A stretch of DNA of 64,000 bases, taken from positions 900,501 to 964,500 of the forward strand of contig JACVTC010000045.1 in NCBI GenBank assembly GCA_016946835.1, in the 5' to 3' direction. Below, piece by piece: positions 5,608 to 40,720 of the stretch. The first letter of the stretch is position 1. Each line of letters starts with the position of its first letter. The notes beneath the pieces were generated by a model. It was not told the DNA's origin. It did not search any database and saw only the letters and a list, made by a program, of their open reading frames with translations. The stretch comes from Neocallimastix lanati (nom. inval.). Lineage: Eukaryota > Neocallimastigomycota > Neocallimastigomycetes > Neocallimastigales > Neocallimastigaceae. A program made the position numbers and the translations under genes.

Positions 5608-6523
5608 TTATTCTCCATCAGCAAAAATGTATAAATAATTACATTGGGGAAATTCTTTTACTAATTTATATCCAAGATTTGTTAGATACTCATGAACCTT
5701 CATTTTTTTTTTTGAAAAACTTTCTACAAATATAATCGGCTTGTATGTTTTAATTGTCACCTTTCCTCCTTGAAGTACCTCCAACTCATGTCCTTCAACA
5801 TCAATTTTTATAAAATCTATTGTATCTTCAACAATTTTTATATTATCTAATTTTTCTAATGAGAGATCTCCATTCAAATCCTGTTTTATTCGTGTACCTC
5901 CAATATTTCCCGGATTATAAAAAGAAATACTTCCCTTGATCTTTTCATTACTTAATCCAATATTGTATATTTTTACTTTTTCCGTAATGTTATTTATTTC
6001 AATATTCTTCTTCAATATATTAAATGTATCTTTTACTGGTTCAAAGGAATAAACCTTCTTAGTATTAGACTTTATGGCCCAATAAATGGAATGATTACCA
6101 ATATTTGCTCCTATATCAAAAATTACAGAATTTTTTTTTATATATGATTGTAACTTTTGCAGTATACCTATTTCAAAAAATGTTCTACCATCTACAATGA
6201 AACGTTGAATGTAATCAACAGGATAATTAGGGACATAAAATTTTGCTTCTCCAATGTCAATAATTTTTTCTGAAGAAAGACACCTCTTACAAAATTTTTT
6301 TGATTTTACCTTTTTTCCATTGCATTTTCTCTTGCAACGTAAAAATAATTTCTGTTCTATAATATTATTAATTAAAAATTTAATTTTATATTTTGTTACC
6401 AATTCTATTAATAAATATTAAGTTTTAATTAATTTTCATACCTTTAGATATAGCTATAGTTGAATTAATGAATAAAACGGTAATAATTAATGTAATAATT
6501 AAAAATTTATGATTTATGATCAT
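5608..6523 (-). CDS. FkbM-family SAM-dependent methyltransferase with N-terminal signal/anchor
   Basis: Two exons: 6523-6442 and 6404-5608, joined over a 37-base intron (GTATGA..TTAATAG, phase 1), giving 292 residues. Exon 1 supplies MIINHK then a hydrophobic run LIITLIITVLFI and STIA, a signal peptide or membrane anchor. The second exon carries the FkbM fold: motif I DIGANIGNHS (about 124-133), the acidic FEP (about 148-150) and FIKIDVEGHELEVL (about 225-238). The family methylates hydroxyls, often on sugars; the substrate here is unknown. Residues 51-69 hold four cysteines (C-x3-C-x10-C-x2-C) between anchor and domain, unusual for the family and possibly metal-binding or disulfide-bonded. 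The neighbour is a GT2 glycosyltransferase on the same strand 1.9 kb away, which supports a role in glycan modification. The start codon follows from the splice join; the second exon alone has no upstream ATG. Confidence 0.85.
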
Positions 6524-6529
6524 TTTTAA

Positions 6530-7290
6530 TAATTTATATAATAAATATAATATTATATAAATATTTTCTTTTAATAATTTTTTAAAAAACCTTTAAATTT
6601 TATTTTCATAAATTTATTATAATTAATTATTTGTAACTGTTTATAACTGTTAATATTGAATTTTATTTTAATTGATTCTATTCTAAAAATACATACAGAG
6701 GAAAAGAATTATTCTTTTAAATAAAAATATCAAATTGAAAGAATTATTATTTTAAATAAAAATATTTAAAATATATTCCTAGAATTATATAAATGAGGGT
6801 TAGGTTAGAGTTTTTAATTAAAAATTTGTTTTCATTTGATTAATGATTTTGACCATTCGTATTTATATTTAACAACAATATCCTTTAAAGAATGATATTT
6901 GAAAAATTTCCGATTTAATATGTGATTTTTTAATTTTTTATTATTATTTATTTTATATAAATCCTTTATCTTTTCATTTTATACCTGTGAATATTTCCGA
7001 TTTATTTATATTTTTATAATTTTTTAATTTTAATGTTTAATAATAATTATAATAAATACATATTTTAATAATTAAAAATAATAAGTTAATTATAAAAGGA
7101 TTATAAATTTATCATTATTTTTTATACGATAGTATTTAAATATATATATATCAATATATTTTGATCAAATATTTATTGATTAATTAGGACAATTATAAAT
7201 TGGGTATTTATTATTAACATAAATAATTACACATATTATATGTTGATGTTTAATTTGCTAAAAAAATTACGTAGTAGGGACTATTTTTTT
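6530..7290. other. AT-rich intergenic stretch, nothing recognised
   Basis: Low-complexity A/T sequence with poly-A and poly-T runs. A single GGGTTAGG at about 6797 looks telomere-like but is isolated. Confidence 0.5.
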
Positions 7291-7299
7291 GAACACTCA

Positions 7300-7790: not shown

Positions 7791-7794
7791 TAAA

Positions 7795-8420: not shown

Positions 8421-8421
8421 A

Positions 8422-9183
8422 TTAAAAATATTGTTTTCTTCTCTTTGAATGTTTATTTTTGATTTTAAAACTTTTTTGGGCAATTTTATTAAATCTTTTT
8501 AATTCTTTTTTTGATAAATTTCTAAGAGAACCTGTTCTTCTCTTGTAATAATAATATATTCCTTTATCAGGTAAGTTTAGAATTCTTGGATTATACTTAT
8601 TAGCTAGCACATTAAAGGCATAATCATTTCCAATTTTCAGCGTTTCATCATATCGAATATTATTTTCATTTAAGAACTTTTTCCTCCAAATGGAATCATA
8701 AATTGACCAATGCTTTTTATACTCTTCTTTATAATAAAATTCAGAAATATTAGTACTTAAAACAAGTTGACCCATAACAATATCATAATCATTAGACTTT
8801 TGAAGCAGATTTTCATAAAATCTTTTATCAATATAATCATCACTATCAACAAATCCAATAAATTCTCCTTTTGCATTCTCAATTCCTGCATTTCTTGCAG
8901 CGCTTGCACCTTTATTTTCTTCAAAATGAATAATTTTAACTCTATTATCAGTTATTTTATACTTTTCTAATATTTCCATGGAGTTATCCGTTGATCCATC
9001 ATCAACACATATTAATTCAAAATCTTTAAAAGTTTGATTCAATATTGAATTTATGCATCTGTCTAAGTATGACGCTGTATTAAATACAGGCACAACAATA
9101 GATAATGGTAAAGCATTAATATTCTTTACTAATATTTCTAAATATAAAGAAGTAATTAAAAATATTACAAATATTAAATTCAT
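8422..9183 (-). CDS. Family 2 (GT-A) glycosyltransferase with N-terminal membrane segment
   Basis: A single-exon gene of 253 residues. Residues 1-19 are hydrophobic (LIFVIFLITSLYLEILV), a probable anchor or signal. A GT2 domain follows: SIVVPVFN (28-35), the nucleotide-binding VDDGSTDNS (60-68), GASAARNAG (92-100) and the metal-binding FVDSDDYID (111-119). Later GNDYAF (185-190) sits where family members carry the catalytic acid region. The tail is strongly basic (KHSKRRKQ). At about 250 residues it resembles short bacterial capsule and LPS glycosyltransferases rather than fungal GT2 chitin or dolichol enzymes. The ATG at 9183 directly precedes the hydrophobic run. It shares strand with the FkbM gene. 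Donor and acceptor sugars are not predictable; UDP-Galf is a candidate because UGM lies 22 kb away. Confidence 0.88.
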   Translation of the reverse strand: MNLIFVIFLITSLYLEILVKNINALPLSIVVPVFNTASYLDRCINSILNQTFKDFELICVDDGSTDNSMEILEKYKITDNRVKIIHFEENKGASAARNAGIENAKGEFIGFVDSDDYIDKRFYENLLQKSNDYDIVMGQLVLSTNISEFYYKEEYKKHWSIYDSIWRKKFLNENNIRYDETLKIGNDYAFNVLANKYNPRILNLPDKGIYYYYKRRTGSLRNLSKKELKRFNKIAQKSFKIKNKHSKRRKQYF

Positions 9184-9378: not shown

Positions 9379-9623
9379 TATTAAACACCAAAAACAAATA
9401 TTGAGAAAATTAGATATATTTTTAGAATAGCATTTCATATATAATACTTAATATTTAATTTTATTTATCTTTATTTTTTATAATTACAAAAGTGTATATA
9501 TTTTTTAACAAGGTTACATTTTATTTCTTTTATAATTTTATTTAAATATAATAATATTCTGATTGGGTAAAATATATTAAAGTCATTATTAAGTATTTAT
9601 TTTTTTTTTTTTATATTCTAACA
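9379..9623 (-). repeat. 3' LTR of copia B (245 bp)
   Basis: In element sense it starts TGTTAGAATAT and ends GGTGTTTAATA. It is repeated at 15671-15914 with no difference seen other than homopolymer length. Confidence 0.95.
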
Positions 9624-9676
9624 TTCCTCCTAAAATATGACTTTCCTAAAATGTCATATTTTTTATTTATATTATT

Positions 9677-12600
9677 TCAAATAAAATATAAATCATCAAT
9701 TTTTGTTAATAAGGAATTTCTAAATTTATCCATTAATGTCCCATTTAAATACTTCGTAAACCCATCAGCGAGATTGTTTTCAGATTTTATATATTTAAGA
9801 TAGATTTTATTTTCTTTGACTATTTCTCTTATGTAATGAACCCTAATGTCTACATGTTTAGTTTTTGGGTTGATAGTTTGATTTGTAGCGTTATAAATAG
9901 CTGCTTTATTGTCAACATTTACTTCAATATTTTTAATATTTAAGTTCAATTCTTCGAATAAATTTAAGTACCATATACATTGTTTACCGCATTCACTAAG
10001 ACTGTAATATTCGGACTCGGCTGTTGAAGTCGATATTGATTTTTTGTAACTTTGAACACCAGCTTGTTGGTGCACCACCAAATGTTATTAAGAATCCTGT
10101 TGTTGAACGTCTAGTTTCCAAGTCACCTCCGTAATCCGAATCGACATACGCTTTAACATTCGGATTATTTGTGAAATTTATTCCATATTTTTTAGTTCCT
10201 TTTAAATATCTTAATATTCTCATTACGTTATTCCAGTCTTCCATATTTGGTTCCTTTGCCCTTCTAGCTGCTTTTGATACTGAGAAGATAATGTCGGGTC
10301 TTGTACATATACTGAGTTATAATAAATTTCCTATTAATCTTCTATATTTTGTTTCATCTACTTTTACCTTCCTAAGATCTTCATTTTCAATTGGAGTCAT
10401 AATTCTAAGAGGTGTACAATTTTTCATATTAAACTTAGAAAGTAATTCATCTATATATCTGGGTTGATGTAAAAAGTAACCATTTTTATGTTTTATAAAT
10501 TTTATTCCAATAATATAATCAACTTTACCTATATCTTTCATTTTGAACTTTTTCTCAATTAATAATTTTACACTTTCTATTGTTTTCTTTGATCCTGATA
10601 TTAGAATATCATCCACATATATAGCTAACATACTTAAAAGTTTTCCTTTATTAAATTTAACGTACAGACAAGGTTCACTTATAAGTCTTTTATATCCAAT
10701 TTTTATTAGATAGCCGTTTAATTTATCATTCCACTTGGCACCACTTTGTTTCAGTCCATATATTGCCTTCTTCAATTTCCAAAATTTCTTATTGTAATCT
10801 TCATGTCCTTTAGGTGGTTTCATATACAAATCTTCATTTAATTCAGCATTTAAATAGGCGGCAGTTATATCTATTTGGTTTATTTCAAAATTGTTCTGAG
10901 TGGCAATTGCTGTAAAGATTCTTATTGAATCCTGTTTTAAGGTAGGTGCAAAGGTTTCTTTATAATCTATGCCGTATTCTTGCGTAAATCCCTTTGCTAC
11001 TAATCTTGATTTTCTTTTGATTATTTCTCCATTTGAGTTTCGTTTGAATTTGAAAATCCATCTTGATGATATTAAGTTTGCGTTCTTAGGTATTTTATCA
11101 ATTGTTTCATATACTTTTAGATTTCTCATATTGTCGAGTTCATTATCGACTGATTTTAACCATTCATTTTTATCATTTAAATTAAAGATATCATCATAAT
11201 TATTTGGTTCGCGTAATTCTTTTAATGATTTTTGTTTTTTGTTATTTGAATTTAATATGAAGTTTTCATTTCTATTTCTTTTTCCTAAATGTATGGAAGA
11301 TTCTATGTTAAATAATTTGTTTTTCGTTAAGTTATTAATGATTCGTTGTTCATTGTTGTTATCGTTATTATTGTTTGAATTATATCTGTCTATATTTGAA
11401 TTATTATGATTGTTTTTATTACTGACAGTGATCATATTGTCGTTTTCATTAATATTATTATTTATTTTGTTATTATTGCTGTTGGTAGTGTTGTTGTTGC
11501 TGTTTGTGTTATCGTTGTTATTAATTTTATTGTTACTTGTGTTATTGTTATTATTATTGTCGTTGTTGTTAATGTTATTATCTTGAGATTCTATATTATT
11601 ATTATAATCTTTATTTTGATTATTATTAATATTTTGGTGTTGTTATTATTGTTGTTTCTTCTTTTGTTATATGTTCTTTTATTTTTTATTTGAATGTTTT
11701 TACTTGGTATATTATTTTCATTTAATTGAGTATTATTGTCTAATATTTGAATATTATTTGACTTGTTGTTATTATATTGATAATACGGATTATTAATGTT
11801 AGTATTATTAAAGTCTTTGCCATGGTTTATATCATACGTGTTATCATAAAAGTAGGTATTATCATTCCTCCTTATTATATTATTGGGAATAAAATTTGAG
11901 ATGTCATTATCGCAATGAGATAAATGTGAATTTCCTGGTGTAAATTCAAAGAATTCAACATTTCGTGAAATTATAATTTTATTATTTGTTATATCAAGAA
12001 TTTTGTATGCTGTGGGATTATCAACATACCCCAAGAATATGCCAGGAGATGAGTTATTTTGAAATTTGGTACGGAATAGTTTTGGAACGTAATAAAAAAC
12101 TTTACATCCGAAGACACGTATGTTTGAATAGTCAACTTTGTTATTGGTTAAAAGTTCATATGGAATTTTATTATTTATCCCTTTATGAGGGATTCGATTA
12201 TGAATGTAGTTCGAAGTAGAGACGGCGTCTTCCCAAAATTGTAAGCTAAGTTTTGCGTCATTTAACATTGACTTTGCAGAATTGATTATAGTGCCGTTGA
12301 ATCGTTCAATCCTACCATTTTGTTGTGGGTGGTAGGGAACAGTAAATTGATGTTGTATTCCAAAGTCAATGCAAAATTGTTTGAAATTTTTGTTGTTAAA
12401 TTCGGTACCATTATCTGTACGGATATATTGAATTCTTTTGTTAAATTGATATTTTATTTTATTAAACCAATTAAGGAAGTGATAAAAAGATTCTGATTTA
12501 CTCTTCATAAAGAGAGTCCAAATCTTGAATGGTCATCCAAAATGGTTAAGATATATTTATTGTCATAGATAGAGTTTTGTATTGGACCTATAAGATCCAT

Positions 12601-14340
12601 GTGTATGAGTTGAAATATATTTTTGGCTCTATTATGTGATGATTTGAAGGGCTTATTTTTAAGTTTTGAATAACTACAAATAGGGCACTTTGAGTTTATG
12701 TTGATTTTTAAAATTTTATTTTTGATACTATTGATATTAAAATGGGCAAAACGACGATGCCATAAATTTAGTTTATCAATTGATTTTAAATGTGTATAAT
12801 TGATTTCAACCAAATTATTATTATGTTGGTTGTTTTGAAAATTTAATGGTTGAGTTGAAATCCAAAATTTAAATGTATTAGATTGGTTCGATTTAATTGA
12901 TAATATTCTTTGATTGTGTTCGTCATAAATTAGTGCATATGATTTATTATTAGTATTATTGAAAATTATTTTGTATCCTTGTTGTGTTAGATTTCCAATT
13001 GATAATAAATTTTTATTTATTTTTGGTGAGTAATAAACATTCTTAATGATTATTTTGTGATTATTAATGTATCCTATGAGATCTCCTTTAAATTTTGTTG
13101 ATATAACTTGATTATTAGCTAAATAAACTTTGTCATTGCACTTTTGAATATTATGTAATTTATTTAAATGACCAGTAATATTTATTGATGCACCGGAGTC
13201 CAATATCCAACACATCATTTCTTTTTGTTTATTTTCTTCGTTTTGTTTATTTACTTCGGCAAAATTAATATCAAGGTTTTCTTGAGAATTGTAATACTTG
13301 GTAAAAGCATCGGCATAGCTTGTATCGTACCTTTCTTTTCCCATGAAATTTGCATAATTTCTACGTTTATTAAATTTTCTTTTAAAATTATTTCTTCTTC
13401 TTTTGAAAATTTTTCTTCTTTTGTTATTATTTTTATCATCTCTTCTAATTTTACAGTCATAAAAGAAATGGCCCCATTTACCACAGTAATTACATCTACC
13501 ATTTTTGGTCTTTTTAGTAGATGTTTTTATTTTAGTAAGTTTTTTCTTATTTGTATTAATGTTAGTATTATTTTCTATTGAAAATATATTTTTAATATTT
13601 TGATTATTTGTTAAGGATTCTTTTAGGTTTGAAGAGATTATTTCAGGCAATACATCCTTAACATATTCACTGCATTTATTCCAATCATTTTTAAATTGAA
13701 ACACATTAATCCAACGGAGTTCTTCTGGGAGGCTTCTGTTAAGGATGCCTACTTTAACACTTGATTCAATGTCATTATCTATTTTCTCGAGTTCATCAAG
13801 TGTGTTCTGTAGTTCAGCAATAAATATATTAATGTCCACTTCTGGGTTATACTTCAAATTATCGAGTTTGGTTTTAAGTTCTAATTTACGCGTGTTGATG
13901 TTTTTGGTAAAAGATCTTTTTAGAATCTTCCACAATTCAAAGGCGGTTTTATTTGATCCTTGCACAATGTCTTGTGTTTTTTCTCCAATACTGTTTAGGA
14001 CGATCCATTTTGTTGTGATATCGTTATTGATATCAACTACATTGGTGTTTTTGTCATACACCAATGTGTCATCAAATTCATCTTCGATATACTCAGATAG
14101 GTCATCTTGTATATCTCTCTTCCTTAATTTCTTAACTTTTTCTTTGGTGATATAGCCAACTAGGTTGTTAATTGATAATAGATGAAGGATTTTGGTTCTC
14201 CATCTATTATAGTTTTCAGTATTTAATTCAACTACTCTGTTAAAATTTTCAGAGTAGTTAAATTTAATTGTTGGCCTGATGTCAATGGGTTCTTCAATGG
14301 TAATTACTTCATTTCTATTGTTTCTTCTTGTGTTAGCCAT
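9677..14340 (-). pseudogene. Copia B gag-pol coding region (about three breaks)
   Basis: It starts at the ATG at 14340 (MANTRRNNRNE). In order it encodes a gag region, a zinc knuckle CNYCGKWGHFFYDC near 13490, the protease motif WILDSGAS near 13200, the integrase zinc region (LWHRRFAHFN then CPICSYSK) near 12750-12660 and the integrase core near 12.6-11.9 kb. An Asn-rich spacer of AAT/AAC repeats follows near 11.8-11.4 kb, then the RT domain with YVDDILISG near 10600 and RNase H (SESEYYSLSE-like region and ENNLADGFTKYL) to 9677. The domain order pr-int-RT-RH is diagnostic of Ty1/copia. The region is carried in more than one frame and is treated as fossil. Confidence 0.9.
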
Positions 14341-14879
14341 TGTGGAGAATTTTAAATTAATTTATTTTTTAATAATTTATTAATATTTTATATTATGCGA
14401 ATATTTTTTTTTTTTTTAAAATTTTAAAGAATAATTGATGAGGGATATGTTGTATGTCTGGATTGTTTATTTATACATATTCAATATATTGATTAAAACC
14501 TTATTCTATTTTCATTAAATAAATGTAAATTGAAATATATATTGTTTAATATTTCCTTGATAATTTATAATGAACTTTAATAATATATATTTTTGATAAT
14601 TGGTTAAGTTATATTTATTACTTAATAAAAAAAAAGGTTATAAAATAATATATTTCAGAATTATGATTGGTTTCTATTTTTATCTTATTTTTTAATGTAA
14701 TATTTTTCATTATGCTATTTGAAATTAATTTAATTAAACATTTATATTATTGGTTTTTTATGTTTGAAAAAGGTATTTATACTTGATTTACATTTATTAA
14801 TATTGGAATTAAAAATATATATGTTTTTTTTTTTTTTTTTTTTTTTAATTTTATTATTAATAATTGACAATAATATTTT

Positions 14880-15270
14880 CAGTTCAAATTAATTATTTGA
14901 CTGACCATATGATTTTCAGTTCAAATTAATTATTTGACTGACCATATGATTTTCAGTTCAAATTAATTATTTGACTGACCATATGATTTTCAGTTCAAAT
15001 TAATTATTTGACTGACCATGTCATTTTTCAGTTCATATTATAATTTGACTGACTATACTATTTTTACAGTTCAAATTAATTATTTGACTGACCATATGAT
15101 TTTCAGTTCAAATTATAATTGACTGACTATTTTATTATTTTATTTTATTATTAATTTTTTTTTTTTTTTATTTTATTTCAATATAAAATTTTATTGATAA
15201 TACTAATTTTCAATTCAAATTATAATTGACTGACTATATTATTTTTTCAGTTCGAATTATAATTTGACTG
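14880..15270 (-). repeat. Nine-copy hairpin tandem repeat in the leader of copia B
   Basis: About nine copies of a 36-37-bp unit on the plus strand: CAGTTCAAAT, short AT spacer, ATTTGACTG, then ACCATATGATTTT. The two arms are near-complementary, so each unit forms a hairpin. The leader also holds two long T-runs, one of about 46 T at 15363-15408. Units recur on the plus strand at 62965-63215. Confidence 0.9.
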
Positions 15271-15360
15271 ACTATAATATATATGTATATTTTTATATAC
15301 AATGAATGAATAATGATATTATTAAATTGTATTAATCCCTCATTAATTTATTTATTTATT

Positions 15361-15415
<55 letters not shown>

Positions 15416-15634
15416 TTTTTGATAATATATTTTGATTTAATTATTATGAAAATAACAAAGTTAATTATGTAGATTCATAATTAATTAAATTATTTCTTTG
15501 ATAATTCAAAATTAGATGTTATTATTGATAAATATAAAAATGATTTTTAATATTAAAAATAAGAAAGCGTTAGTTCAATTTATTTATAAGATGAATATAT
15601 TTATATATTAATTATGTAAATTATAACTTAACTT

Positions 15635-15670
15635 ATGGTTAAGCTCAGTTGTAGACTGAGACTCTTAATC
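15635..15670 (-). other. Primer-binding site of copia B, tRNA-Lys(CUU) 5'-half
   Basis: The plus strand reads GGTTAAGCTCAGTTG (D-arm like), then GACTGAGACTCTTAATC, the anticodon arm of a lysine tRNA with anticodon CTT. It ends exactly where the LTR begins at 15671. This agrees with the half-tRNA priming known for copia-type elements. Confidence 0.7.
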
Positions 15671-15914
15671 TATTAAACACCAAAAACAAATATTGAGAAA
15701 ATTAGATATATTTTTAGAATAGCATTTCATATATAATACTTAATATTTAATTTTATTTATCTTTATTTTTTATAATTACAAAAGTGTATATATTTTTTAA
15801 CAAGGTTACATTTTATTTCTTTTATAATTTTATTTAAATATAATAATATTCTGATTGGGTAAAATATATTAAAGTCATTATTAAGTATTTATTTTTTTTT
15901 TTTATATTCTAACA
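15671..15914 (-). repeat. 5' LTR of copia B (244 bp)
   Basis: Same sequence as 9379-9623. Right end TCTAACA, followed by the target duplication CATTT. Confidence 0.95.
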
Positions 15915-22832: not shown

Positions 22833-23963
22833 TTATTTTTTATATTGATCTAATAAATTTAATATATATTGTGAAGGATTATCATAACCATCTGGATTAG
22901 TAGATTGCCATCTCCAGGCATCAGCACACATTTGTTCAAGATTATATTGAGTAAACCATCCTAATTCCTTATTAGCTTTAGCCGAAGAAGTCACAAGACG
23001 ATCAGCATCACCTTTTCGACGTTCGGCGATCTTGTAAGGAACTTGTTTACCAGCAGTTTTATTCATAGCTTCAATAATTTCTAGTACAGAGTATCCAATG
23101 CCATTACCCATATTGTATATAAAAATACGATCGTTAACAGAAACTTTGCTATTCTTCCTATTAAGTTCATTGATTCTTAACTTTTCAAGAGCTGCTAAAT
23201 GACCATCAGCAAGATCTATTACATGAATATAATCTCTGATACAGGTACCATCTGGAGTATTATAATCATTCCCAAACACGTTTAAAAATTCACGTTTTCC
23301 TACCAAAGTTTGAGTAATATATGGAATAAGGTTATTTGGAATATCTTTTGGATTTTCACCAATTAAGCCAGTAGCGTCAGCCCCAATAGGATTGAAGTAT
23401 CGAAGGAAGCAAGCTTGACCATCTTCAAAAATCTTCATTTTTTCTGTAATGACATTTTCTGCCATTTGTTTTGATTTACCATATGGATTAATGGGATCAA
23501 TATTACAATCTTCAGTTAGAAGACCTTCATTTTTACCGTAACCATAAAGAGTAGCAGAAGAAGAAAAAACAATATTATGAACGTTATGTTCCATCATACA
23601 CTCTACTAGAATACGAGTGGCCTCAACATTATTTTGTATATATTCATCAGGAATCTCGAAGGATTCAGCTACAGATTTCAGTCCTGCAAAATGAATAACA
23701 GCCCAAAAATCATATTTATCAAATATTTTAGTTAAATTTTCCTTATCACGGACATCACATAAATAAAATGGGATTTTTCTTCCAGTGATAATTTCAACTC
23801 TTTTTACTGAATCTTCACATGAATTACATAAATTGTCAACAACAACCACATCATGTCTATTTCTACAAAGTTGTAAAATAGTATGTGAACCAATAAAGCC
23901 AGCACCACCAGTAACTAGAATGTATTTACCTTTGATTGGAGTAGAAACAAAAATTGAAGGCAT
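22833..23963 (-). CDS. galE: UDP-glucose 4-epimerase (GALE)
   Basis: A single-exon gene of 376 residues that interconverts UDP-glucose and UDP-galactose with bound NAD in the cytosol. The Rossmann motif GGAGFIGSH is at 19-27, the catalytic SSSATLYG at 134-141 and the Tyr-Lys pair in NPYGKSK at 159-165. RYFNPIGA (188-195) and a C-terminal GDADRLVTSS region are standard for the family. It lacks the C-terminal aldose mutarotase domain that makes yeast Gal10 about 700 residues long, so it is a stand-alone epimerase of normal length. It is divergent from the UGDH gene, whose start lies 1345 bp away. Its product feeds UGM (31348-32607). Codon use matches the window, and no intron is present. Confidence 0.95.
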   Translation of the reverse strand: MPSIFVSTPIKGKYILVTGGAGFIGSHTILQLCRNRHDVVVVDNLCNSCEDSVKRVEIITGRKIPFYLCDVRDKENLTKIFDKYDFWAVIHFAGLKSVAESFEIPDEYIQNNVEATRILVECMMEHNVHNIVFSSSATLYGYGKNEGLLTEDCNIDPINPYGKSKQMAENVITEKMKIFEDGQACFLRYFNPIGADATGLIGENPKDIPNNLIPYITQTLVGKREFLNVFGNDYNTPDGTCIRDYIHVIDLADGHLAALEKLRINELNRKNSKVSVNDRIFIYNMGNGIGYSVLEIIEAMNKTAGKQVPYKIAERRKGDADRLVTSSAKANKELGWFTQYNLEQMCADAWRWQSTNPDGYDNPSQYILNLLDQYKK

Positions 23964-25308: not shown

Positions 25309-27645
25309 ATGCTTTTGGAATCATTATTTAATAATGAAAATGAATGTATAAATAAAACTAATGACAAAATAGGTCACTTTTCATTTAAAAAACTATTAAA
25401 TAGACCATTAAATATTTGCTACATTGGAGCAGGATATGTTGGAGGAACATCAAGTTCAGTAATGGCATATAAATGTCCAGAAAAAGAGGTTATCGTAACT
25501 GTTTGTGATGTCGACTCCAGAAAAATTGATTCATGGAATTCTGATAATGTAAATTTTTATTTATGTTATTCATATAATATTATTTTTTATTAAAAATTTA
25601 TTTTTAATATTATTAATGATATATTAATAAATAAAAAAAAATGATTTAAATATATAAATACGAAGCTTCCTATTTATGAACCTGGATTAGAAGAAATTGT
25701 GAGAGATAGAAGAGGAAAAAACTTATTTTTTACTAATGACTTAGATAAATCTATATATTCTGCTGATATTATATTTATTTCTGTTGGTACTCCAACTAAA
25801 AAGAGAGGAATTGGTGCTAATCAAGCAGCAGAACTTAGGTTTGTATAATATTGTAATTATTTTTTTATCATATTTTAGTTAATTTAATAATTATTTGTTT
25901 TCTTTTTAAATAAATTATTATAAATTTATTAATTTTATAGCTATATAGAGAGCGCTGCTAGGAAAATTGCATCTGTATCAAGAAATTCGAAAATTATTAT
26001 AGAAAAGTCAACTGTTCCTTGTAAAACAGCTGAACATATACGATCTATACTAGAGGCAAATAAAATGAAAAATAATTATTTAGGTAAGAAGCTAAATATA
26101 ATTTTAAGATATATAAATCCAATAAGAATAAATTGAAATGCATTCAGAAATTGTTATATTTATATATGTATATTTAAATATTTACTGAATTTAGATGATG
26201 GTAAATTACTTAAGGAATATGTCGAGAAGGACTATTCAAATAAATTAAGTATGTCACGTTCAAGTAGTAATGCTACTTTAAATGAAAATGATAGTGTATT
26301 TGAAGATAATGGAAATTCTAATAAAAATAATGACAAATCTATTCATTTTGAAATTTTATCCAATCCAGAATTTCTTGCAGAAGGAACTGCTGTGAATGAT
26401 ATTCTTAATCCTGACAGAATTTTAATAGGAGGATTACCAACAAAGAAAGGTTTAATAGCGCAAAAAATATTATGTAAACTTTATTCATATTGGATTCCTG
26501 AAGAAAAAATTATAAAAATGGGACTCTGGTCAGCTGAATTATCAAAATTAGTAAGTTACTATAATTATATAAAATTTAAAAAAATTTTAAATATTAGATT
26601 ATAATATAAATTTTTAAATATTTAATTTCATTTTAAAAAATTTAAAGACAGCAAATGCATTATTAGCTCAAAGAATTTCAAGTATTAATTCTTTAAGTTC
26701 ATTATGTGAAGAAGTTGGTGCTGATATCCAGGAAATATCATATGCTTGCGGTTTAGATTCCAGAATAGGACCCAAATTCCTTAACGCTAGTATTGGTATG
26801 GCAATTCTTTATTAAATAATAATTAACAAATAATAAATTGTATTATGTATATGTTCTAAACAAAAAACAATTATAATTTTACGATAGGATTTGGAGGAAG
26901 TTGTTTCCAGAAGGATGTTTTAAATTTAATTTATCTTTCAAATTACTTTAATCTTCCAGAAGTTGCTGATTATTGGAAGCAAGTAATTATAATGAATGAA
27001 TATAGAAAATCTAGATTTATAAAAAATATTTTTAATAAACTTTTCCATACTATTAATGGAAAAGTAATATCTATATTTGGTTTTTCTTTCAAAAAAAATA
27101 CTAAAGATACAAGGTATTAAATAATATATTTGAAAAGAATTTCATTTTTTAATATTTTTAATAAATAATTTTTTGATAAAATTTAATAGAGAATCACCTG
27201 CAATAGCAGTAGTACTGTCATTATTAAGAGAAGGTGCTATAATTAATATATATGATCCAAAAGTACCATTAGTACAAATTAAAAATGATATTAAAGAAAA
27301 TAGTGATAAAGAGGAATATAATGGTAATTTTAAAAATAAATAATACATTATAAAATAATATATAATTATTAATATTTATATTTATAATCCTTAAATAAAA
27401 AAAAAAAAAAAAAAGAATTTATTTCAAAAATTACAGTTTGCAATTCATGTTATGAAGCTTCCTATGGTGCAAATGCCATTGTAGTTTGTACTGAATGGGA
27501 TGAATTTGTATCTCTAGATTATAAAAGAATTTATAATCAGATGATAAAACCTGCTTTTGTGTTTGATGGTAGACTTATTTTAAATCATAAAGTATTAAAA
27601 AATATTGGTTTTCATGTGGAAACAATAGGAAAAAAGTTATCATAG
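25309..27645 (+). CDS. UDP-glucose 6-dehydrogenase (UGDH), 8 exons
   Basis: Exons 25309-25548, 25666-25838, 25941-26083, 26195-26550, 26648-26795, 26888-27113, 27190-27323 and 27437-27645 sum to 1629 bases, 542 residues, all with GT..AG introns of about 75-117 bases. It oxidises UDP-glucose to UDP-glucuronate with two NAD+. Motifs: NAD site IGAGYVGG near 37-44, NLPIYEPGL across the first junction, [19 protein letters not shown] at 239-251, and the catalytic GFGGSCF with Cys359. [13 protein letters not shown] spans the sixth junction. A Ser/Asn-rich insert at about 180-234 interrupts the usual join between the ATPase-like halves and accounts for much of the extra length (usual 460-490). The intron-rich structure contrasts with the intronless sugar genes around it and suggests a native eukaryotic gene. 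It supplies UXS (39761-40720). Confidence 0.93.
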
Positions 27646-28519: not shown

Positions 28520-30103
28520 TTATTTATGTTCCATAAAATAATCTTCAAATTCTCTTCTTGGACTTCTAGCAAATATAGATTTATCATCATAATATCCAGC
28601 ATAGAGAATAACAGCAATTCTTTCATTTGAGGGAATATCATTAATTTTTTTTAATTTTTCTTCTTGCTCCGAAGAATTATTAAATTGTATAAAGCAAGTT
28701 CCAATTCCAAGAGAATGAAAGGCGTTGACTAAATTAGTTGAAAATAATCCAGCATTAAAATATCCTTGATTTCTTTCACCCACTCCTCTTAAACCATTCA
28801 CATCAAATGTAATAATAAAAGTGTTTACGCCTTCCAAATATAAACCACTTTTTCCTATACTATAATCTATCACATTTTGTTTCATTTTACCCGTTGGGTA
28901 ATAATGTAATTTAATATATTGCCTGTTACATGCTGAAGGAGAATATTTCGCCATTTCTACTGCTTTTTTAATATCATCAAATTTTAATTTTAAATTTTTG
29001 TAATTTCTTGTTGAATGTCTTGACTTAATAAATTTTTTATAATCAATACTATAATCATTTTTTAACTCTTCCTTAGTTAATATATATGCTCCTGTTTTTT
29101 GTTCTTCAATATATCTATAATATTTTAAAAATCTCGATACTATTTTATATTCAGACCTTTTTATCCACTTATACTTTTCATAAATTTTTTTATATTCTCT
29201 TAATGCGTTAATTCCATTAATAAAATAAAAATGACGTTCATGATTATTATATTTCAATTCTGCTTTCAAGATTCTTATTATTGCTTTAATTTTTTCCTTT
29301 CCAAAAGGTCTTAATTTAAAATGGGATAATCCTTTCTCTAATGAATGTGTTTGAAAAATAAGAGAATATCCTAGTTTATTAAAAGTTTCATTTGAAACCA
29401 TATTATATTTGTTATAAAAATTTTTATCATAAAAATATTCTTTATCAAGAAAAGATAATTTGTTTTCTTCGTAGTTTCCCCCCCTCAGATTTAATAGTAA
29501 AGTTGAATTATTTTTTAAAAGCTCAGATTTTATTTCTTGTAATTCTTTTACATTAACATTAATACGATCTCGTAAAGAATTAATAATAAATTCTTTTTCA
29601 TTTATTTCTTTCTTATATTTATTAATAATATCTTCAAAATTTGTAATTTGTTTCATAAAAATATCAGATTTATGTTGAAATTCTTTATTTTTATTTTTTA
29701 AATCTTTTTGATATGATTTTAATTGATCATTTAATTCATTATTAATGCTTTTATTTAAAATAATATCATTCTCATATTTACTATTTTGATTTCGTAATAA
29801 AAAAATTTGATTTTGAAGTGTATTATTTTGTATTTGAATTTTTGAATATAACTGATCCTTTTCTATTATTAATTTATTTAAATGTCGTTTTATATTTTCT
29901 ATTTCTTTATTCTTTTCTTGCAATTCTTTTTCAAAAGGTTTTTTATATACTAAAAAAGATATTATTATAATATAAAATGTAACTTTTGTACTTAACAAAA
30001 CTATTCTTTTATATTTTTTAGAGGTTTCATTTAATTGTAAATCCTTCTCTTGAAGAACGTTTTTCATATTCACTTTTTTAATTTCATTAATTTTATTTTT
30101 CAT
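28520..30103 (-). CDS. Membrane-anchored coiled-coil protein with C-terminal nitroreductase domain
   Basis: A single exon of 527 residues. Residues 1-33 are basic and polar; 34-53 form a transmembrane segment (IVLLSTKVTFYIIIISFLVY). About 55-200 is a charged heptad-like coiled coil rich in K, E, N, L and I. About 240-285 holds HSLEKGLSHFKLRPFG, a block I associate with nitroreductase-like proteins of bacterial polysaccharide loci. The FMN-binding nitroreductase domain covers about 358-515: RHSTRNY (362-368) and YSPSACNRQ (387-395) are the typical FMN-phosphate contacts. Redox substrate unknown; a flavin partner for the neighbouring flavoenzyme UGM, which must be reduced to work, is possible but unproven. 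It is divergent from UGM with 1244 bp between starts. Being intronless and bacterial in type, it may be a transferred domain joined to a eukaryotic-style anchor. Confidence 0.8.
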   Translation of the reverse strand: MKNKINEIKKVNMKNVLQEKDLQLNETSKKYKRIVLLSTKVTFYIIIISFLVYKKPFEKELQEKNKEIENIKRHLNKLIIEKDQLYSKIQIQNNTLQNQIFLLRNQNSKYENDIILNKSINNELNDQLKSYQKDLKNKNKEFQHKSDIFMKQITNFEDIINKYKKEINEKEFIINSLRDRINVNVKELQEIKSELLKNNSTLLLNLRGGNYEENKLSFLDKEYFYDKNFYNKYNMVSNETFNKLGYSLIFQTHSLEKGLSHFKLRPFGKEKIKAIIRILKAELKYNNHERHFYFINGINALREYKKIYEKYKWIKRSEYKIVSRFLKYYRYIEEQKTGAYILTKEELKNDYSIDYKKFIKSRHSTRNYKNLKLKFDDIKKAVEMAKYSPSACNRQYIKLHYYPTGKMKQNVIDYSIGKSGLYLEGVNTFIITFDVNGLRGVGERNQGYFNAGLFSTNLVNAFHSLGIGTCFIQFNNSSEQEEKLKKINDIPSNERIAVILYAGYYDDKSIFARSPRREFEDYFMEHK

Positions 30104-31347: not shown

Positions 31348-32607
31348 ATGGAACAAAAACAAAAATTAAAAGTAAAGGAATCAAATTTGACATTTATAAA
31401 AAAAATAAAATTTAAAAAGACGCTCAATAATTTATTCATTATTATAGTTATTTTGATACTTTATTATATACTAAAGAGTAAAGTTGGAGCAAACTCTTCT
31501 AAATTAAAACATTATGATTATCTTATCGTTGGTTCAGGCCTTTATGGTTCTACATTTAATTATCTCGCTAAAAAAAAAGGAAAAAGGACTCTTATTTTAG
31601 AGAAACGTGATGTTGTTGGTGGTAATTTATATTGCGAAAAAATAGAAGGAATTTATGTACATAAGTACGGTCCACATATATTTCATACTGATAATATAAG
31701 AGTATGGAACTTCGTAAATAATATGACTCACTTTAATCCTTATATTCTACAAACGGTGGCACGAGTTGGTGATAAACTGTACAGCTTACCTTTTAATATG
31801 TATACATTTAACCAATTATGGGGAGTTACAACACCGGAGGAAGCAATAGCCAGGATTAATGATGATAAATATACTGGTGAAGTTCATAATTTAGAGGAAC
31901 AAGCATTATCTTTAGTAGGTAGAGATATTTATGAAAAATTAATTAAAGGATATACTGAAAAACAATGGGGAAGAGATTGTAAAAATTTACCTCCTTTTAT
32001 CATTAAAAGATTACCTACACGATATACATTTAATGGTAACTATTTTAATGATAGATATCAAGGTATTCCAGAAGGATGCTATAATGCTATGATAGATAAA
32101 TTGCTAGAAGATACAGAAATTATCACTGGTGTTGATTATAATACTAATAGAGAAAAGTATGAAAAAATGGCTAATAAAATTGTATACACTGGGAAAATTG
32201 ATGAATATTTTGGATACAAATACGGAAAATTGCAATATAGAACTGTAAGATGGGATACTGAGATAAAAGAAGTAGCAAATTTCCAAGGTACCGCCATTAT
32301 TAATCAGCCAGATAAAAATGTTAAATATACCAGAATAATTGAACATAAGCATTTTGAGCCATATAATGGAAAAATTCATCAACTAAATAAAACAGTAATA
32401 AGTAAAGAGTATAGTGAAGAATGGGATGAAACTAAAGAGGGGTATTATCCAGTAAATGATGGCAAAAATAATAATTTATATAAAAAATATAAAGAATTGG
32501 CTGAAAAAGAAAAAAATGTAATTTTTGGAGGAAGACTTGCGGAATACAAATATTATGATATGAAAGATATTATTGAGTCTGTTTTTAGTTACTGGGATAA
32601 TATTTAA
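31348..32607 (+). CDS. glf: UDP-galactopyranose mutase, bacterial type, with N-terminal membrane anchor
   Basis: A single exon of 419 residues. It converts UDP-galactopyranose to UDP-galactofuranose using reduced FAD. The FAD motif IVGSGLYGS is at 60-68 and ILEKRDVVGG at 83-92, followed by KYGPHIFHT (106-114). The family signature IKRLPTRYTFN is at 219-229 with NDRYQGIP at 234-241, including the conserved substrate arginine. FGGRLAEYKYYDM (393-405) closes the fold. The catalytic part is about 365 residues, the bacterial Glf length; fungal mutases known from Aspergillus are about 510 residues. Residues 1-27 are basic and 28-43 are a transmembrane helix (NLFIIIVILILYYIL), absent from ordinary cytosolic mutases. 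The start ATG precedes the anchor and is in frame without introns. Upstream enzyme GALE is at 22833-23963. Confidence 0.95.
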   Translation: MEQKQKLKVKESNLTFIKKIKFKKTLNNLFIIIVILILYYILKSKVGANSSKLKHYDYLIVGSGLYGSTFNYLAKKKGKRTLILEKRDVVGGNLYCEKIEGIYVHKYGPHIFHTDNIRVWNFVNNMTHFNPYILQTVARVGDKLYSLPFNMYTFNQLWGVTTPEEAIARINDDKYTGEVHNLEEQALSLVGRDIYEKLIKGYTEKQWGRDCKNLPPFIIKRLPTRYTFNGNYFNDRYQGIPEGCYNAMIDKLLEDTEIITGVDYNTNREKYEKMANKIVYTGKIDEYFGYKYGKLQYRTVRWDTEIKEVANFQGTAIINQPDKNVKYTRIIEHKHFEPYNGKIHQLNKTVISKEYSEEWDETKEGYYPVNDGKNNNLYKKYKELAEKEKNVIFGGRLAEYKYYDMKDIIESVFSYWDNI

Positions 32608-33830: not shown

Positions 33831-33832
33831 AT

Positions 33833-35340: not shown

Positions 35341-36177
35341 TAATCATTATACATGTTTTCTTTCACCAAGGATAACAATTGTTCCTCTACACATAAGAGA
35401 TTGATAAATGTAAACAGAAAGATTTCTTTATTGTGTGAGCTTTTGATATTAATAGAAATGCTAATATTTAAATTGTTTATTAATTTATTTTTTAATTAAT
35501 ATAAAATTTATATAATAAATTTAAATTATATTATATATTACAATTATTTGTTTTAAAATTCCTAGAAGAATCTTAAAATTTTAAGATAAGAATCTCTTTA
35601 TTTTGAAAAAATATAATAAAATGATAATATTATAAATAGTAAAATTATAGCTATTTATTTGTTTATTAAATATTTTTTATATAAATTTATAAATAAATTC
35701 GAAATAACAATTGCATTAATTATAAAATATCTTTTAATGTTAACCATATATAATAATAACTTTTATCTTTGTAATTAAAATATTTTAAGTATTAATTACT
35801 TTATTTAATTTCAATTATAATAAAGTATACTTTAAAATAATTTATATTTTAAGTTTAAATATATTTAATTTTAAATATATTTTTAATTTTAAATATCAAT
35901 TCTTATTTTTATATTTAAAATTATACTAATATATATTTATTTTTAAAACTTAAAAAACAAAATCCTGTATTTTTATATTTAACATGGATTAATATAAAAA
36001 AAATTCTTGGAAACTTAAAAGTTTACTATAAATAATTTATTTATTAAATTTTCAATTTATATAAAACATGAAATATTAATTTATATAGTTTTATAATAGA
36101 TTTAATTTAATATTATTTTTTTTTTAATTTTTATGAATTAATCCAATAGAAAAAAACTTAAGATGTAGTAACACGGT
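35341..36177. other. AT-rich stretch, nothing recognised
   Basis: Low-complexity A/T between two copia relics. Confidence 0.45.
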
Positions 36178-38314
36178 TCCTTTAATAATAATCCGTATTA
36201 TCAATATAATAACAATAGGTCAAATAATATTCAAATATTAGACAATAATACTCAAATAAATGAAAATAATATACCAAGTAAAAACATTCAAATAAAAAAT
36301 AAAAGAACATATAACAAAAGAAGAAACAACAATATTAACAACACCAAAAATATTAATAATAATCAAAACAAAGATTATAATAATATAGAATCTCAAGATA
36401 ATAACATTAACAACAACGACAATAATAATAACAATAACACAAGCAACGATAACACAAACAGCAACAACAACACTACCAACAGCAATAATAACAAAATAAA
36501 TAATAATATTAATAAAAACGACAATATGATCACTGTCAGTAATAAAAACAATCATAATAATTCAAATATAGACAGATATAATTAAAACAATAATAACGAT
36601 AACAACAATGAACAACGAATCATTAATAACTTAACGAAAAACAAATTATTTAACATAGAATCTTCCATACATTTAGGAAAAAGAAATAGAAATGAAAACT
36701 TCATATTAAATTCAAATAACAAAAAACAAAAATCATTAAAAGAATTACGCGAACCAAATAATTATGATGATATCTTTAATTTAAATGATAAAAATGAATG
36801 GTTAAAATCAGTCGATAATGAACTCGACAATATGAAAAATCTAAAAGTATATGAAACAATTGATAAAATACCTAAGAACGCAAACTTAATATCATCAAGA
36901 TGGATTTTCAAATTCAAACGAAACTCAAATGGAGAAATAAAGTGGTGCTAAGTGGAATAATAAATTAAACGGCTATCTAATAAAAATTGTATATAAAAGA
37001 CTTATAAGTGAACCTTGTCTGTACGTTAAATTCAATAAAGGAAAACTTTTAAGTATGTTAGCTATATATGTGGATGATATTTTAATATCAGGATCAAAGA
37101 AAACAATAGAAAGTGTAAAATTATTAATTGAGAAAAAGTTCAAAATGAAAGATATAGGTAAAGTTGATTATATTATTGGAATAAAATTTATAAAACATAA
37201 AAATGGTTACTTTTTACATCAACCCAGATATATAGATGAATTACTTTCTAAGTTTAATATGAAAATATTAAACAAATTATGCACCTCTTAGAATTATGAC
37301 TCCAATTGAAAATGAAGATCTTAGGAAGGTAAAAGTAGATGAAACAAAATATAGAAGATTAATAGGAAATTTATTATAACTCAGTATATGTACAAGACCC
37401 GACATTATCTTCTCTGTATCAAAAGCAGCTAGAAGGGCAAAGGAACCAAATATGGAAGACTGGAATAACGTAATGAGAATATTAAGATATTTAAAAGGAA
37501 CTAAAAAATATGGAATAAATTTCACAAATAATCCGAATGTTAAAGCGTATGTCGATTCGGATTACGGAGGTGACTTGGAAACTAGACGTTCAACAACAGG
37601 ATTCTTAATAACATTTGGTGGTGCACCAACAAGTTGGTGTTCAAAGTTACAAAAATCAATATCAACTTCAACAGCCGAGTCCGAATATTACAGTCTTAGT
37701 GAATGCGGTAAACAATGTATATGGTACTTAAATTTATTCGAAGAATTGAACTTAAATATTAAAAATATTGAAGTAAATGTTGACAATAAAGCAGCTATTT
37801 ATAACGCTACAAATCAAACTATCAACCCAAAAACTAAACATGTAGACATTAGGGTTCATTACATAAGAGAAATAGTCAAAGAAAATAAAATCTATCTTAA
37901 ATATATAAAATCTGAAAACAATCTCGCTGATGGGTTTACGAAGTATTTAAATGGAACATTAATGGATAAATTTAGAAATTCCTTATTAACAAAAATTGAT
38001 GATTTATATTTTATTTGAAATAATATAAATAAAAAATATGACATTTTAGGAAAGTCATATTTTAGGAGGAATGTTAGAATATAAAAAAAAAAATAAATAC
38101 TTAATAATTGACTTTAATATATTTTACCCAATCAGAATATTATTATATTTAAATAAAATTATAAAAGAAATAAAATGTAACCTTGTTAAAAATATATACA
38201 CTTTTGTAATTATAAAAAATAAAGATAAATAAAATTAAATATTAAGTATTATATATAAAATGCTATTCTAAAAATATATCTAATTTTATCAATATTTGTT
38301 TTTGGTGTTTAATA
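36178..38314 (+). mobile_element. Copia relic C, 5'-truncated copy of family B
   Basis: Nearly identical at nucleotide level to copia B from the Asn-rich spacer through RT (YVDDILISG near 37070) and RNase H (ends 38018), in the opposite orientation. It keeps the polypurine tract GGAGGAA and a 3' LTR at 38072-38314. The 5' LTR, leader, gag, protease and integrase are missing, and part of the RT region is absent. It is broken in several places. Close similarity to copia B indicates a fairly recent origin. Confidence 0.92.
38072..38314 (+). repeat. 3' LTR of copia relic C
   Basis: 243 bp, TGTTAGAATAT to GGTGTTTAATA. It differs from the two LTRs of copia B at only a handful of positions. Confidence 0.92.
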
Positions 38315-39760
38315 GTATTTGTTTAAATATTAATTTAATTTTTTAAAATTATTAAATATAATAAGAAACTTAAAAAGTAGAAATTTTCAAAATACATGAT
38401 TTAAAATGGTTTAAAAATATATTTTAACTAAAATAAAATATTTAAATTAATTTTATTTTATTATTTGTTAATAATATTTTTATACTTTTATTTTTTAAAA
38501 AATAAAAAAGATTATTTAATAATTATATAAATTTAATTTGATATATGAAGAAATTTTCTGGTTTTAAATTTGGTATTGTCATTTATTGTATTATGATTAA
38601 TTTTTATATTACTAATAATGGTTTTTAAAATTATAAATGAAAATTGAAAAAATTAACCAGTAATTCTTTATAATATGTTAATTTTTTTAAATATAATTAT
38701 ATATATAAAAAAGAAAAATTAAATTCAACTCATTCATACTAACCACAATCCATATGTATCCTATAATTTTAAATTAAAAATAAATATTTATTTTATTACA
38801 TAAAAATAAAGTCAATTGTTTTAGTGTAAATGATAATCACCCAACATATACTTTATATAATAAATAAATAAATTCATTGATAAAAATGGTATCTAAACTT
38901 TAAAAATTAATACAATACTTAATTTTTTTTTATAAAATATTTAAAAATTATTTATTAATACTTTTTATTATATATAAATTTAAAATATAATTTTTATAAT
39001 TTATTAATTAAAAATTTATTATTATTATTTAAAAAATGATATTCTTAATTAAAGTATTTGAATTAGAATTATAATATATTTATTTATTTTTATAATTAAA
39101 TTACTTATAAATATATAATAATTTAACAGAAAAATTTTATTTTTTTTATAATTTTTTATTATGAAATAAAAATATTATTAAATAAATCATTATAAAGTTA
39201 TTTTAAAAATTTAAATATTATAAATGAATTTATATTTTATATTAATAAAGAATTTAAAATTCTAAATTTTCAAAATAGTATTACTTTTAACTCCTTTATT
39301 AAATTATTGATAAATCAGTTAAATAGTTAAAATTAATAAAAAAGTATATATATAATTAAAATTTAACAAAAAAAAATATTTGTTTTTAATATATTTTAAA
39401 TATTTTTAAATTTTATAAAGTAAAAAAATTTATTACATAAAATTAATGATTAATTTAATATTATTTATATATTATTTATGTAATTTTATTATTTTTTGTA
39501 CTCTCAGCATATATAAGTATCTAAAGAATAATCAATTAATATTAACTTTGCTTTTTTTTTAATTATTAAATTTTTTAAAATTAAATTAAAAAATTGTAAC
39601 TTATTAATAAATCCAAAACATGATAGAAACCAAAAATGAGAATTATTATTAAATTTTACAAAAAAATAATAATAATAATAATAAAGAAAATTGTATAATT
39701 AAATGTAATAAAAATATTAAATTTGATATAAATATTATTAAATTTTTTTTTATTCAAAAT
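38315..39760. other. AT-rich intergenic stretch, nothing recognised
   Basis: Near-pure A/T, with a short AAT microsatellite near 39665-39685. Confidence 0.5.
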
Positions 39761-40720
39761 TTATTTTTGGTCCATATCTTTTATTTTCTTGAAATAATTT
39801 ATAGTTTTTAGTAGTCCTTCTCTCAACTGGATGACTGGTTCCCATTTTAATTTTTCCTTTGCTAACGATATATCTGGTCTTCGTTTGCATGGGTCGTCCA
39901 TAGGTAATTCTTTATATATCATTTTACTTTTTGATTCTTTAATTAGTTCCAAAATTATTTCTGCTAATTCCTTTATTGTAAATTCATTTGGATTTCCTAA
40001 ATTAATAGGTCCATGAAAAGTGTCATCAGTATCCATCACTTTTATCATTGCTTCAATTAAATCATCAATGTATTGGAAACTTCTTGTTTGTGAGCCATCG
40101 CCATATATAGTTTCATCTTGGTCATTTAGAGCTTGATTCACAAAATTAGTTATAACTCTTCCATCATCTTTTGCCATGTAAGGACCATAGGTATTAAAAA
40201 TACGAATAATTTTTACTTTCACTCCAAATTGATTAATATAATTAAAGCATAAAGTTTCAGCACTTCTTTTTCCTTCGTCATAGCAACTTCTAATTCCAAA
40301 ACAATTCACGTGGCCTCTATATCCTTCCTTTTGAGGATGTTCTAATGGATCACCATAAACTTCTGATGTACTCGCTTGTAGCATTTTACAATTATTTTTT
40401 TTTGCTAAATTTAACATATTAGTTGTTCCAATAAAACATGTATTAATGGTAAATAATGGATCTTTTTGATAATGAGGTGGTGAAGCAGGACATGCTAGAT
40501 TATATATTTGGTCTAATTTTTCTTCAATAGTTAAAGGTTCTATAATATTATGATTGATAAACTTAAAATTTTGATTCGTCATTAAAGGTTTTATATTTCT
40601 TATTTGTCCTGTGTATAAATTGTCTACGCAAATTATTTTATTGCCATCATTTAATAATCTTCTACAAAGATTTGATCCTATAAATCCTGCACCTCCAGTT
40701 ATCAATATAGTTTTACCCAT
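39761..40720 (-). CDS. UXS: UDP-glucuronate decarboxylase / UDP-xylose synthase
   Basis: A single exon of 319 residues. It is an NAD-dependent SDR enzyme that decarboxylates UDP-glucuronate to UDP-xylose. The NAD site TGGAGFIGSN is at 8-17. The UXS-specific NLACPASPPHYQKDP is at 74-88, the catalytic STSEVYGDP at 117-125 and YDEGKR (Tyr147, Lys151) at 147-152. RIFNTYGP (173-180), GDGSQTRSFQYIDD and the end block RRPDISLAKEKLKWEP are family hallmarks and separate it from dTDP-glucose dehydratases. The short cytosolic form lacks the N-terminal Golgi anchor of animal UXS, so it resembles bacterial and soluble plant-type enzymes. It uses the product of the UGDH gene at 25309-27645. UDP-xylose is a glycan precursor and a known feedback inhibitor of UGDH. 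Confidence 0.93.
   Translation of the reverse strand: MGKTILITGGAGFIGSNLCRRLLNDGNKIICVDNLYTGQIRNIKPLMTNQNFKFINHNIIEPLTIEEKLDQIYNLACPASPPHYQKDPLFTINTCFIGTTNMLNLAKKNNCKMLQASTSEVYGDPLEHPQKEGYRGHVNCFGIRSCYDEGKRSAETLCFNYINQFGVKVKIIRIFNTYGPYMAKDDGRVITNFVNQALNDQDETIYGDGSQTRSFQYIDDLIEAMIKVMDTDDTFHGPINLGNPNEFTIKELAEIILELIKESKSKMIYKELPMDDPCKRRPDISLAKEKLKWEPVIQLREGLLKTINYFKKIKDMDQK

Follow-up and report, generated by a model that had tools for sequence, protein, structure and literature searches.

Why should a fungal contig hold, within a short distance, enzymes of the kind used by bacteria to build surface polysaccharides, and where in the cell would such enzymes act? The question is raised by a 64,000-nucleotide stretch of Neocallimastix lanati DNA (the window, C390:900501-964500), located on the 1.24 Mb contig JACVTC010000045.1 (C390) of a 199 Mb assembly in 762 contigs. 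The UDP-galactopyranose mutase (UGM), nitroreductase-family protein and GT2 glycosyltransferase of the window are by sequence of bacterial polysaccharide-locus type, the FkbM methyltransferase is probably so, and every bacterial-type protein checked carries a hydrophobic N-terminal leader. With moderate confidence, we propose that bacterial capsule-type enzymes were taken up by the fungus, tagged with leaders and placed in the lumen of the secretory pathway, where they would build a glycan on secreted glycoproteins.

Gene content of the window and its bacterial relatives

The initial annotation had named seven genes in this region, and family matches recovered all of them between 5608 and 40720, as follows.

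5608..6356, minus strand: FkbM methyltransferase exon 2, stop included, with a Cys-rich linker at its start (TIGR01444, 3e-26)
6357-6441, minus strand: FkbM intron of 85 nucleotides, its splice site placed by comparison with the paralogue at C390:1171341
6442..6523, minus strand: FkbM exon 1, a signal-peptide-like leader (hydropathy 2.53; same architecture in the paralogue)
8422..9183, minus strand: GT2 glycosyltransferase, its hydrophobic leader 26 residues long (PF00535, 6.8e-40; 40 matches in the genome)
22833..23963, minus strand: UDP-glucose 4-epimerase (GALE), without a leader (TIGR01179, 1.6e-119)
25309..27645, plus strand: UDP-glucose 6-dehydrogenase (UGDH), eight exons, 549 amino acids, eukaryotic type, without a leader
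28520..30103, minus strand: nitroreductase-family protein with an added N-terminal transmembrane segment and coiled coil (PF00881, 2.5e-15)
31348..32607, plus strand: UGM, bacterial type (TIGR00031, 1.6e-107)
31348-31512, plus strand: N-terminal anchor of UGM, about 55 residues
39761..40720, minus strand: UXS-type decarboxylase, without a leader (SDR family, PF16363, 5.3e-54)

The description of these genes as poor in introns was also accurate, with seven introns in UGDH, one in FkbM and single open frames for the remaining five. Contamination was rejected on account of the 1.24 Mb contig, the introns in UGDH and FkbM, and the retroelements between the genes.

UGM is a full-length family match (TIGR00031, 359.8 bits, above the cut-off of 303.75). 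Its best solved relatives are the mutases of Escherichia coli (2.4e-126) and Campylobacter jejuni (4.7e-124), and no Aspergillus UGM was present among its 60 matches to solved proteins at E <= 1. The AlphaFold model (28-row alignment, mean pLDDT 85.4) matched 4mo2 and 1i8t with TM-scores of 0.93-0.94 (target length) and 52-53% identity, versus 12-13% identity to Aspergillus fumigatus UGM among the matches listed. By both sequence and fold, this enzyme is nearer to the bacterial class of UGM than to the eukaryotic one. Two arginines, R221 and R329, do not vary across 28 sequences and align with R170 and R278 of E. coli UGM (1i8t), which we take to be active-site arginines. One position, presumably with a role in substrate specificity, is occupied by Arg in the N-acetyl mutase of C. 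jejuni and by His in both the window UGM and E. coli UGM, which makes UDP-galactose (UDP-Gal) the likelier substrate. The whole genome contains only two PF03275 matches, both of them bacterial-type UGM and neither of the eukaryotic class found in Aspergillus.

Bacterial UGM loci were represented by 80 of the 594 matching stretches of a genome scan, with flanks of 10 kb at most; their UGM proteins are 54-61% identical to that of the window, and many come from bacteria with gut or rumen names. In a phylogeny of UGM, a test recommended by the initial annotation, the two fungal copies joined at 100/100 on a stem of 1.29 attached to a long bacterial branch, and no single donor was resolved in the tree. 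Within the 80 loci, relatives were detected for GT2 in 48 (window query), UXS in 17, GALE in seven, and pyruvyl transferase and HAD proteins, which are encoded elsewhere on C390, in five and four.

Searches for the nitroreductase, UXS and FkbM covered the genomes of 50 of these 80 loci. The nitroreductase had a match in 21 of the 50, at full length in only one, a 26% identical protein of Prevotellaceae HUN156 whose gene adjoins a polysaccharide flippase. Full-length relatives elsewhere are located between a flippase and a pyruvyl transferase in Pseudorhodobacter, inside Paracoccus and Gemmobacter genes whose annotation is pyruvyl transferase, and on the Lactiplantibacillus plantarum capsule plasmid pL11623-1, where 17 kb contain the nitroreductase together with pyruvyl transferase, GT2 and glf (UGM) genes. 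A nitroreductase model made without an alignment was unusable (mean pLDDT 43.9). In the family search GT2 matched bacterial polysaccharide transferases, its best solved relative being GalT1 (5hea, 1e-30). FkbM was matched in six of the 50 genomes, and its bacterial relatives, from this search and from 10 of the 26 matches of another, are 25-37% identical; the origin suggested by these matches is less sure.

The nucleotide-sugar enzymes gave a mixed picture. UGDH, matched through one exon (PF03721, 1.5e-11), was assembled as an intact model by choosing one of four splice variants that fit. It scored 552.7 bits to 3tdk, presumably human UGDH, and 244.7 bits to 4a7p, the best of the next group of solved structures, scores that mark it clearly as eukaryotic. 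GALE scored nearly equally to several solved enzymes, such as yeast GAL10 (338.7 bits) and 1lrj, which we take to be E. coli GALE (327.5 bits). The inclusion of these two genes as bacterial-style members was therefore not upheld: UGDH is eukaryotic and GALE scores alike both ways, and the window does not hold one transferred four-enzyme operon. UXS was identified by its best solved relative, UDP-glucuronate decarboxylase 1 (2b69, presumably the human enzyme; 3.2e-107, 362 bits). Bacterial relatives at E <= 1e-60 were found in nine of the 50 genomes (52-64% identity, at best 436 bits, a score from a different search than the 362 bits), so that UXS leans bacterial and may likewise have been transferred. 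What stands of the transferred glycan pathway postulated earlier is the bacterial type of UGM, nitroreductase and GT2, together with the existence of a bacterial capsule plasmid carrying four such families; the single operon does not stand, and no donor locus collinear with the window set was found among the bacterial loci examined.

Hydrophobic leaders on the bacterial-type enzymes

A hydrophobic N-terminal signal or anchor was present in all 17 bacterial-type proteins checked, from eight families, at a hydropathy of at least 1.5, a threshold set after the values had been seen and applied to leaders judged by hydropathy only. Fourteen of the 17 reach 2.0, and the leaderless enzymes fall below 1.5 (UXS 1.44, GALE 1.27, UGDH -0.15). 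Random 30-residue leaders passed 1.5 at a rate of 0.05 when drawn with the island's own codons and 0.33-0.34 when drawn from stop-free A+T-rich DNA; the latter rate, taken over eight independent families, yields about 2 in 10,000. Longer random leaders of 58 residues, as for UGM and the nitroreductase, passed 2.0 at rates of 0.025 (own codons) and 0.30 (A+T-rich).

Comparison with bacterial relatives of UGM, GT2 and the nitroreductase suggested that their leaders are additions. Both UGM copies carry a hydrophobic N-terminal extension of about 55 residues, unlike soluble bacterial UGM; in 69 of the 80 bacterial genes no in-frame ATG lies more than 15 residues before the core, and three have none. 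In the six GT2 copies measured, the core strand is preceded by 25-27 residues that include a hydrophobic core; of 48 bacterial GT2 genes near UGM, 42 lack an ATG more than 11 residues upstream (one has none). Among 33 stop-free GT2 matches in the genome, 25 start within query residues 1-9 and therefore cover the leader; the others start at residue 13 (one), 26-29 (six, on C57, C760, C113 and C114) and 162 (one). The transmembrane segment and coiled coil of the nitroreductase are missing from three bacterial relatives, exon 1 of FkbM is signal-like in both copies, and leaders are also carried by the GT-D, HAD and MurB-like genes outside the window; that of the pyruvyl transferase is the upstream exon of a hand-built gene model. 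In the UGM and GT2 pairs, leader identity falls to 74% versus 89-91% in the cores, with hydrophobicity retained. Arg is absent from the first 30 residues of 15 leaders and occurs once in the other two.

Between leader and enzyme, FkbM (window 5608-6356) and GT-D (L010:660-1811; L016:3676-4836) share a Cys-rich stretch resembling K-x-C-K-x-C, perhaps a shuffled linker.

Duplication and clustering along C390

The N-terminal secretory leaders and the length of the gene-rich stretch are two stronger features than those described in the initial annotation. About 0.72 Mb of C390, surrounding the window, is dense in such genes, with matches from about 495 to 1213 kb, approximately 20 times the length of the window cluster. 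C390 makes up 0.62% of the assembly and holds 14 of 40 genome matches for GT2, both for UGM, two of five for FkbM, three of six for pyruvyl transferase, two of eight for GT-D, two of seven for the nitroreductase (the sole full-length ones) and three of 16 merged loci for UGDH. Matches off C390 lie mainly on C90, C114, C379, C511, C213 and C710. The linkage noticed earlier is real: the 73 loci, from eight families, contain 67 pairs of different families no more than 30 kb apart, whereas 2000 uniform placements gave 0.6 such pairs on average and never more than 4. The list of loci was merged by hand (GT2 from 40 to 35, FkbM from five to four, UXS from five to two, pyruvyl transferase from six to three, UGDH from 61 exon rows to 16, and nitroreductase from seven to three, leaving out three matches outside C390 and C213 that were mainly coiled-coil alignments; the two UGM and eight GT-D loci were used as found).

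The set recurs in blocks. A second block at C390:1144-1172 kb, about 210 kb away, contains UGM, three GT2, UGDH and FkbM, and shares with the window four families and gene and flank DNA that is 80-87% identical. A block on C213 contains UXS, UGDH, a stop-ridden nitroreductase fragment and GT2, with gene and flank DNA 70-85% identical to the window, and the order is partly changed between blocks. Five duplicate pairs have synonymous divergence (dS) of 0.30-0.42 and ratios of nonsynonymous to synonymous divergence (dN/dS) of 0.08-0.27, which indicates old copies kept by purifying selection.

Further members outside the window are a pyruvyl transferase at 866 kb of C390, GT-D genes at 871 kb and 998 kb (the latter broken by a stop), a HAD protein at 1128 kb, and a broken MurB-like gene (UDP-N-acetylmuramate dehydrogenase; L009:400-1460, C390:860.9-862.0 kb, minus strand; PRK13905, 4.7e-36 on the open piece), which with its signal-like leader is odd for a fungus. 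The second full-length nitroreductase, 85% identical to the first, is located in the region C390:692421-696836, about 2 kb from a pyruvyl transferase, as in bacterial loci. Two GT2 matches (G000:C526:7971 and C586:7923) score the same as two on C390 and perhaps lie on alternative haplotype contigs.

Interruption of the cluster by retroelements, as reported earlier, was evident from two long terminal repeat (LTR) features.

9379..15903, minus strand: LTR retroelement, not a pathway part (identical 233-nucleotide terminal repeats; open frames)
36172..38093, plus strand: LTR retroelement fragment in inverted orientation, 96-100% like the element at 9.6-11.6 kb

The identity of the two 233-nucleotide repeats indicates that the first element, between GT2 and GALE, is a young insertion. 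The 96-100% likeness of the second applies to most of its arms, one arm being 77% alike.

A proposed lumenal pathway and its alternatives

As we infer from sequence for the direction of transfer, the enzyme activities, the lumenal location and the protein acceptor alike, the genes taken up from bacteria, probably gut bacteria, would be those for UGM, nitroreductase, GT2 and, with less certainty, FkbM within the window, plus the pyruvyl-transferase, GT-D, HAD and MurB-like genes outside it. Each enzyme would have gained a signal peptide or type II membrane anchor, which should place its catalytic domain within the endoplasmic reticulum or Golgi. Leaderless GALE, UGDH and UXS would make UDP-Gal, UDP-glucuronic acid and UDP-xylose in the cytosol; UDP-Gal would be imported, and anchored UGM would convert it in the lumen to UDP-galactofuranose (UDP-Galf). 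Lumenal GT2 and GT-D transferases could then build a glycan on secreted glycoproteins, to be methylated by FkbM and modified by the pyruvyl transferase. The anchored nitroreductase might, as a guess, supply reducing power to UGM. Block duplication would have spread the set across about 0.7 Mb and several contigs, with purifying selection preserving it even as young retroelements inserted themselves among the genes. No flippase, polymerase or initiating transferase was recognised by eye in the frames read, where no family search was made for them; this, with transferases like those of serine-rich repeat protein (SRRP) loci, makes a protein acceptor seem likelier than a lipid-linked polymer.

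Several observations weigh against this proposal. Hydropathy is a crude criterion for leaders, and one GT2 leader lies exactly at 1.50, with UXS (1.44) and GALE (1.27) little below a threshold chosen post hoc, and A+T-rich random peptides pass the hydropathy thresholds in about a third of draws. An ATG farther upstream is present in five of 48 bacterial GT2 genes and, in frame, in eight of 80 bacterial UGM genes, and leader dN/dS (0.27-0.58) exceeds that of the UGM and GT2 cores. Relatives of the nitroreductase, FkbM, GT-D and MurB-like genes occur in none of the 80 bacterial UGM loci with their flanks of up to 10 kb, so that the set is not accounted for by any one donor locus. The tree program warned of long branches, so that the join of the UGM pair may be false; the MurB-like gene, one GT-D copy and the C213 nitroreductase are broken; and the 67 linked pairs show grouping only, because the uniform null ignores tandem and segmental duplication. 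The Galf precursor was, in a passage of PMC8092308, predicted to be missing from Neocallimastigomycota, although a search based on the eukaryotic UGM class would presumably overlook the bacterial type.

It is possible, if doubtful, that the genes share an address rather than a pathway, having arrived as scattered single transfers beside native sugar genes in a duplication-prone, transposon-rich region. Native UGDH, the equal scores of GALE, the dense retroelements, the varying gene order and the GT2 matches on C57, C760 and C113, apart from the other families searched, would all be expected from such a history, but mixed families are found together at three or more sites, purifying selection acts on five duplicate pairs, and every non-native family is of polysaccharide-locus type and bears leaders. 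That the leaders direct the enzymes elsewhere, with the hydrogenosome as one candidate, or have no targeting function, leaving the enzymes cytosolic as in other fungi, appears improbable. The pass rate of about a third for A+T-rich random leaders at 1.5 speaks for this, whereas the presence of leaders in eight families and the drift of UGM and GT2 leaders to 74% (cores 89-91%) with hydrophobicity kept speak against it, as does the lack of Arg in 15 of 17 leaders; usual presequences carry Arg. Giant viruses carry GT2, FkbM and nucleotide-sugar genes, and the stretch is long and intron-poor, yet an integrated giant virus is hardly credible: no viral hallmark frame was recognised by eye over 304 kb, with a Pfam scan of part only, and UGDH has seven introns. 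A capsid search gave no matches, but its control was silent, so that absence was not demonstrated.

The proposed lumenal pathway resembles several known systems in part. Nucleotide-sugar enzymes and glycosyltransferases are linked in bacterial Wzx/Wzy capsule loci as they are in the window and on C390; L. plantarum pL11623-1, however, carries a flippase, a polymerase and Wzz/CpsB/CpsD, while the fungal genes bear leaders and are spread over hundreds of kb. The streptococcal SRRP glycosylation system is echoed by GT2, through GalT1 (5hea), and by the GT-D at 871 kb, which matched TIGR03728 (SP_1767 family) at 4.8e-86 with 288.5 bits, slightly short of the cut-off of 290.75; we take GalT1 and SP_1767 to belong to SRRP loci. 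Unlike the streptococcal enzymes, those of the fungus have added leaders. The Aspergillus pathway (UGM, UDP-Galf transporter and GfsA) performs the same step from UDP-Gal to UDP-Galf, according to parts of PMC7278926, with a cytosolic UGM of another class, 12-13% identical, whereas the window UGM is of bacterial type with an anchor. The same parts describe eukaryotic UDP-Galf as a cytosolic product that is then brought into the Golgi, and place Galf in the O-glycan of bacterial cellulosomes (C. thermocellum and B. cellulosolvens); Galf on a secreted cellulose-degrading complex in a fungus would follow the same idea.

Xenologs make up more than 1% of anaerobic-fungal proteomes, and 33% of early-diverging-fungal xenologs have a signal peptide against a 7.7% background (portions of PMC11291939); those described there are hydrolases, binding domains and unnamed glycosyltransferases, not a linked capsule-type set. 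No account of capsule-type genes in anaerobic fungi was present among the literature matches listed, and neither glycan words in the available part of PMC10978972 nor word searches in that of PMC6712302 gave a match. If the proposal is true, an anchored bacterial-type UGM among re-addressed capsule-type enzymes contradicts the prediction, in the passage of PMC8092308, of no Galf, and lumenal UGM differs from the cytosolic synthesis and transport described in PMC7278926, as far as its parts go. It would also show a multi-step bacterial surface pathway rebuilt gene by gene in a eukaryotic Golgi and give a testable lead on how fungal cellulosomes and the surfaces of rumen fungi are glycosylated; the leaders hint at an undescribed sugar coat on secreted fungal proteins.

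A bolder and unlikely extension is that the membrane-anchored bacterial mutase makes UDP-Galf within the secretory pathway, no transporter being needed, and that capsule- and SRRP-type enzymes O-glycosylate giant secreted scaffolds. With the enzymes rather than the sugar lipid moved across the membrane, the flippase step would be bypassed, and gene transfer would have given the fungus a counterpart to the Galf O-glycan of bacterial cellulosomes. Scaffoldin-like giant genes are numerous in anaerobic fungi, according to a part of PMC10978972, and the link to cellulosome glycosylation is therefore only the boldest reading.

Giant Cys/Tyr repeat proteins are encoded at 47437-56473 of the window (minus strand) and at C390:975764-994645 (L014-L016), the latter with an open frame of 6294 amino acids that is hydrophobic at one end and rich in Thr and Ser along part of its length. 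They appear comparable in size and layout to the repeat-rich scaffoldins of more than 500 kDa described for anaerobic fungi in a portion of PMC8262932.

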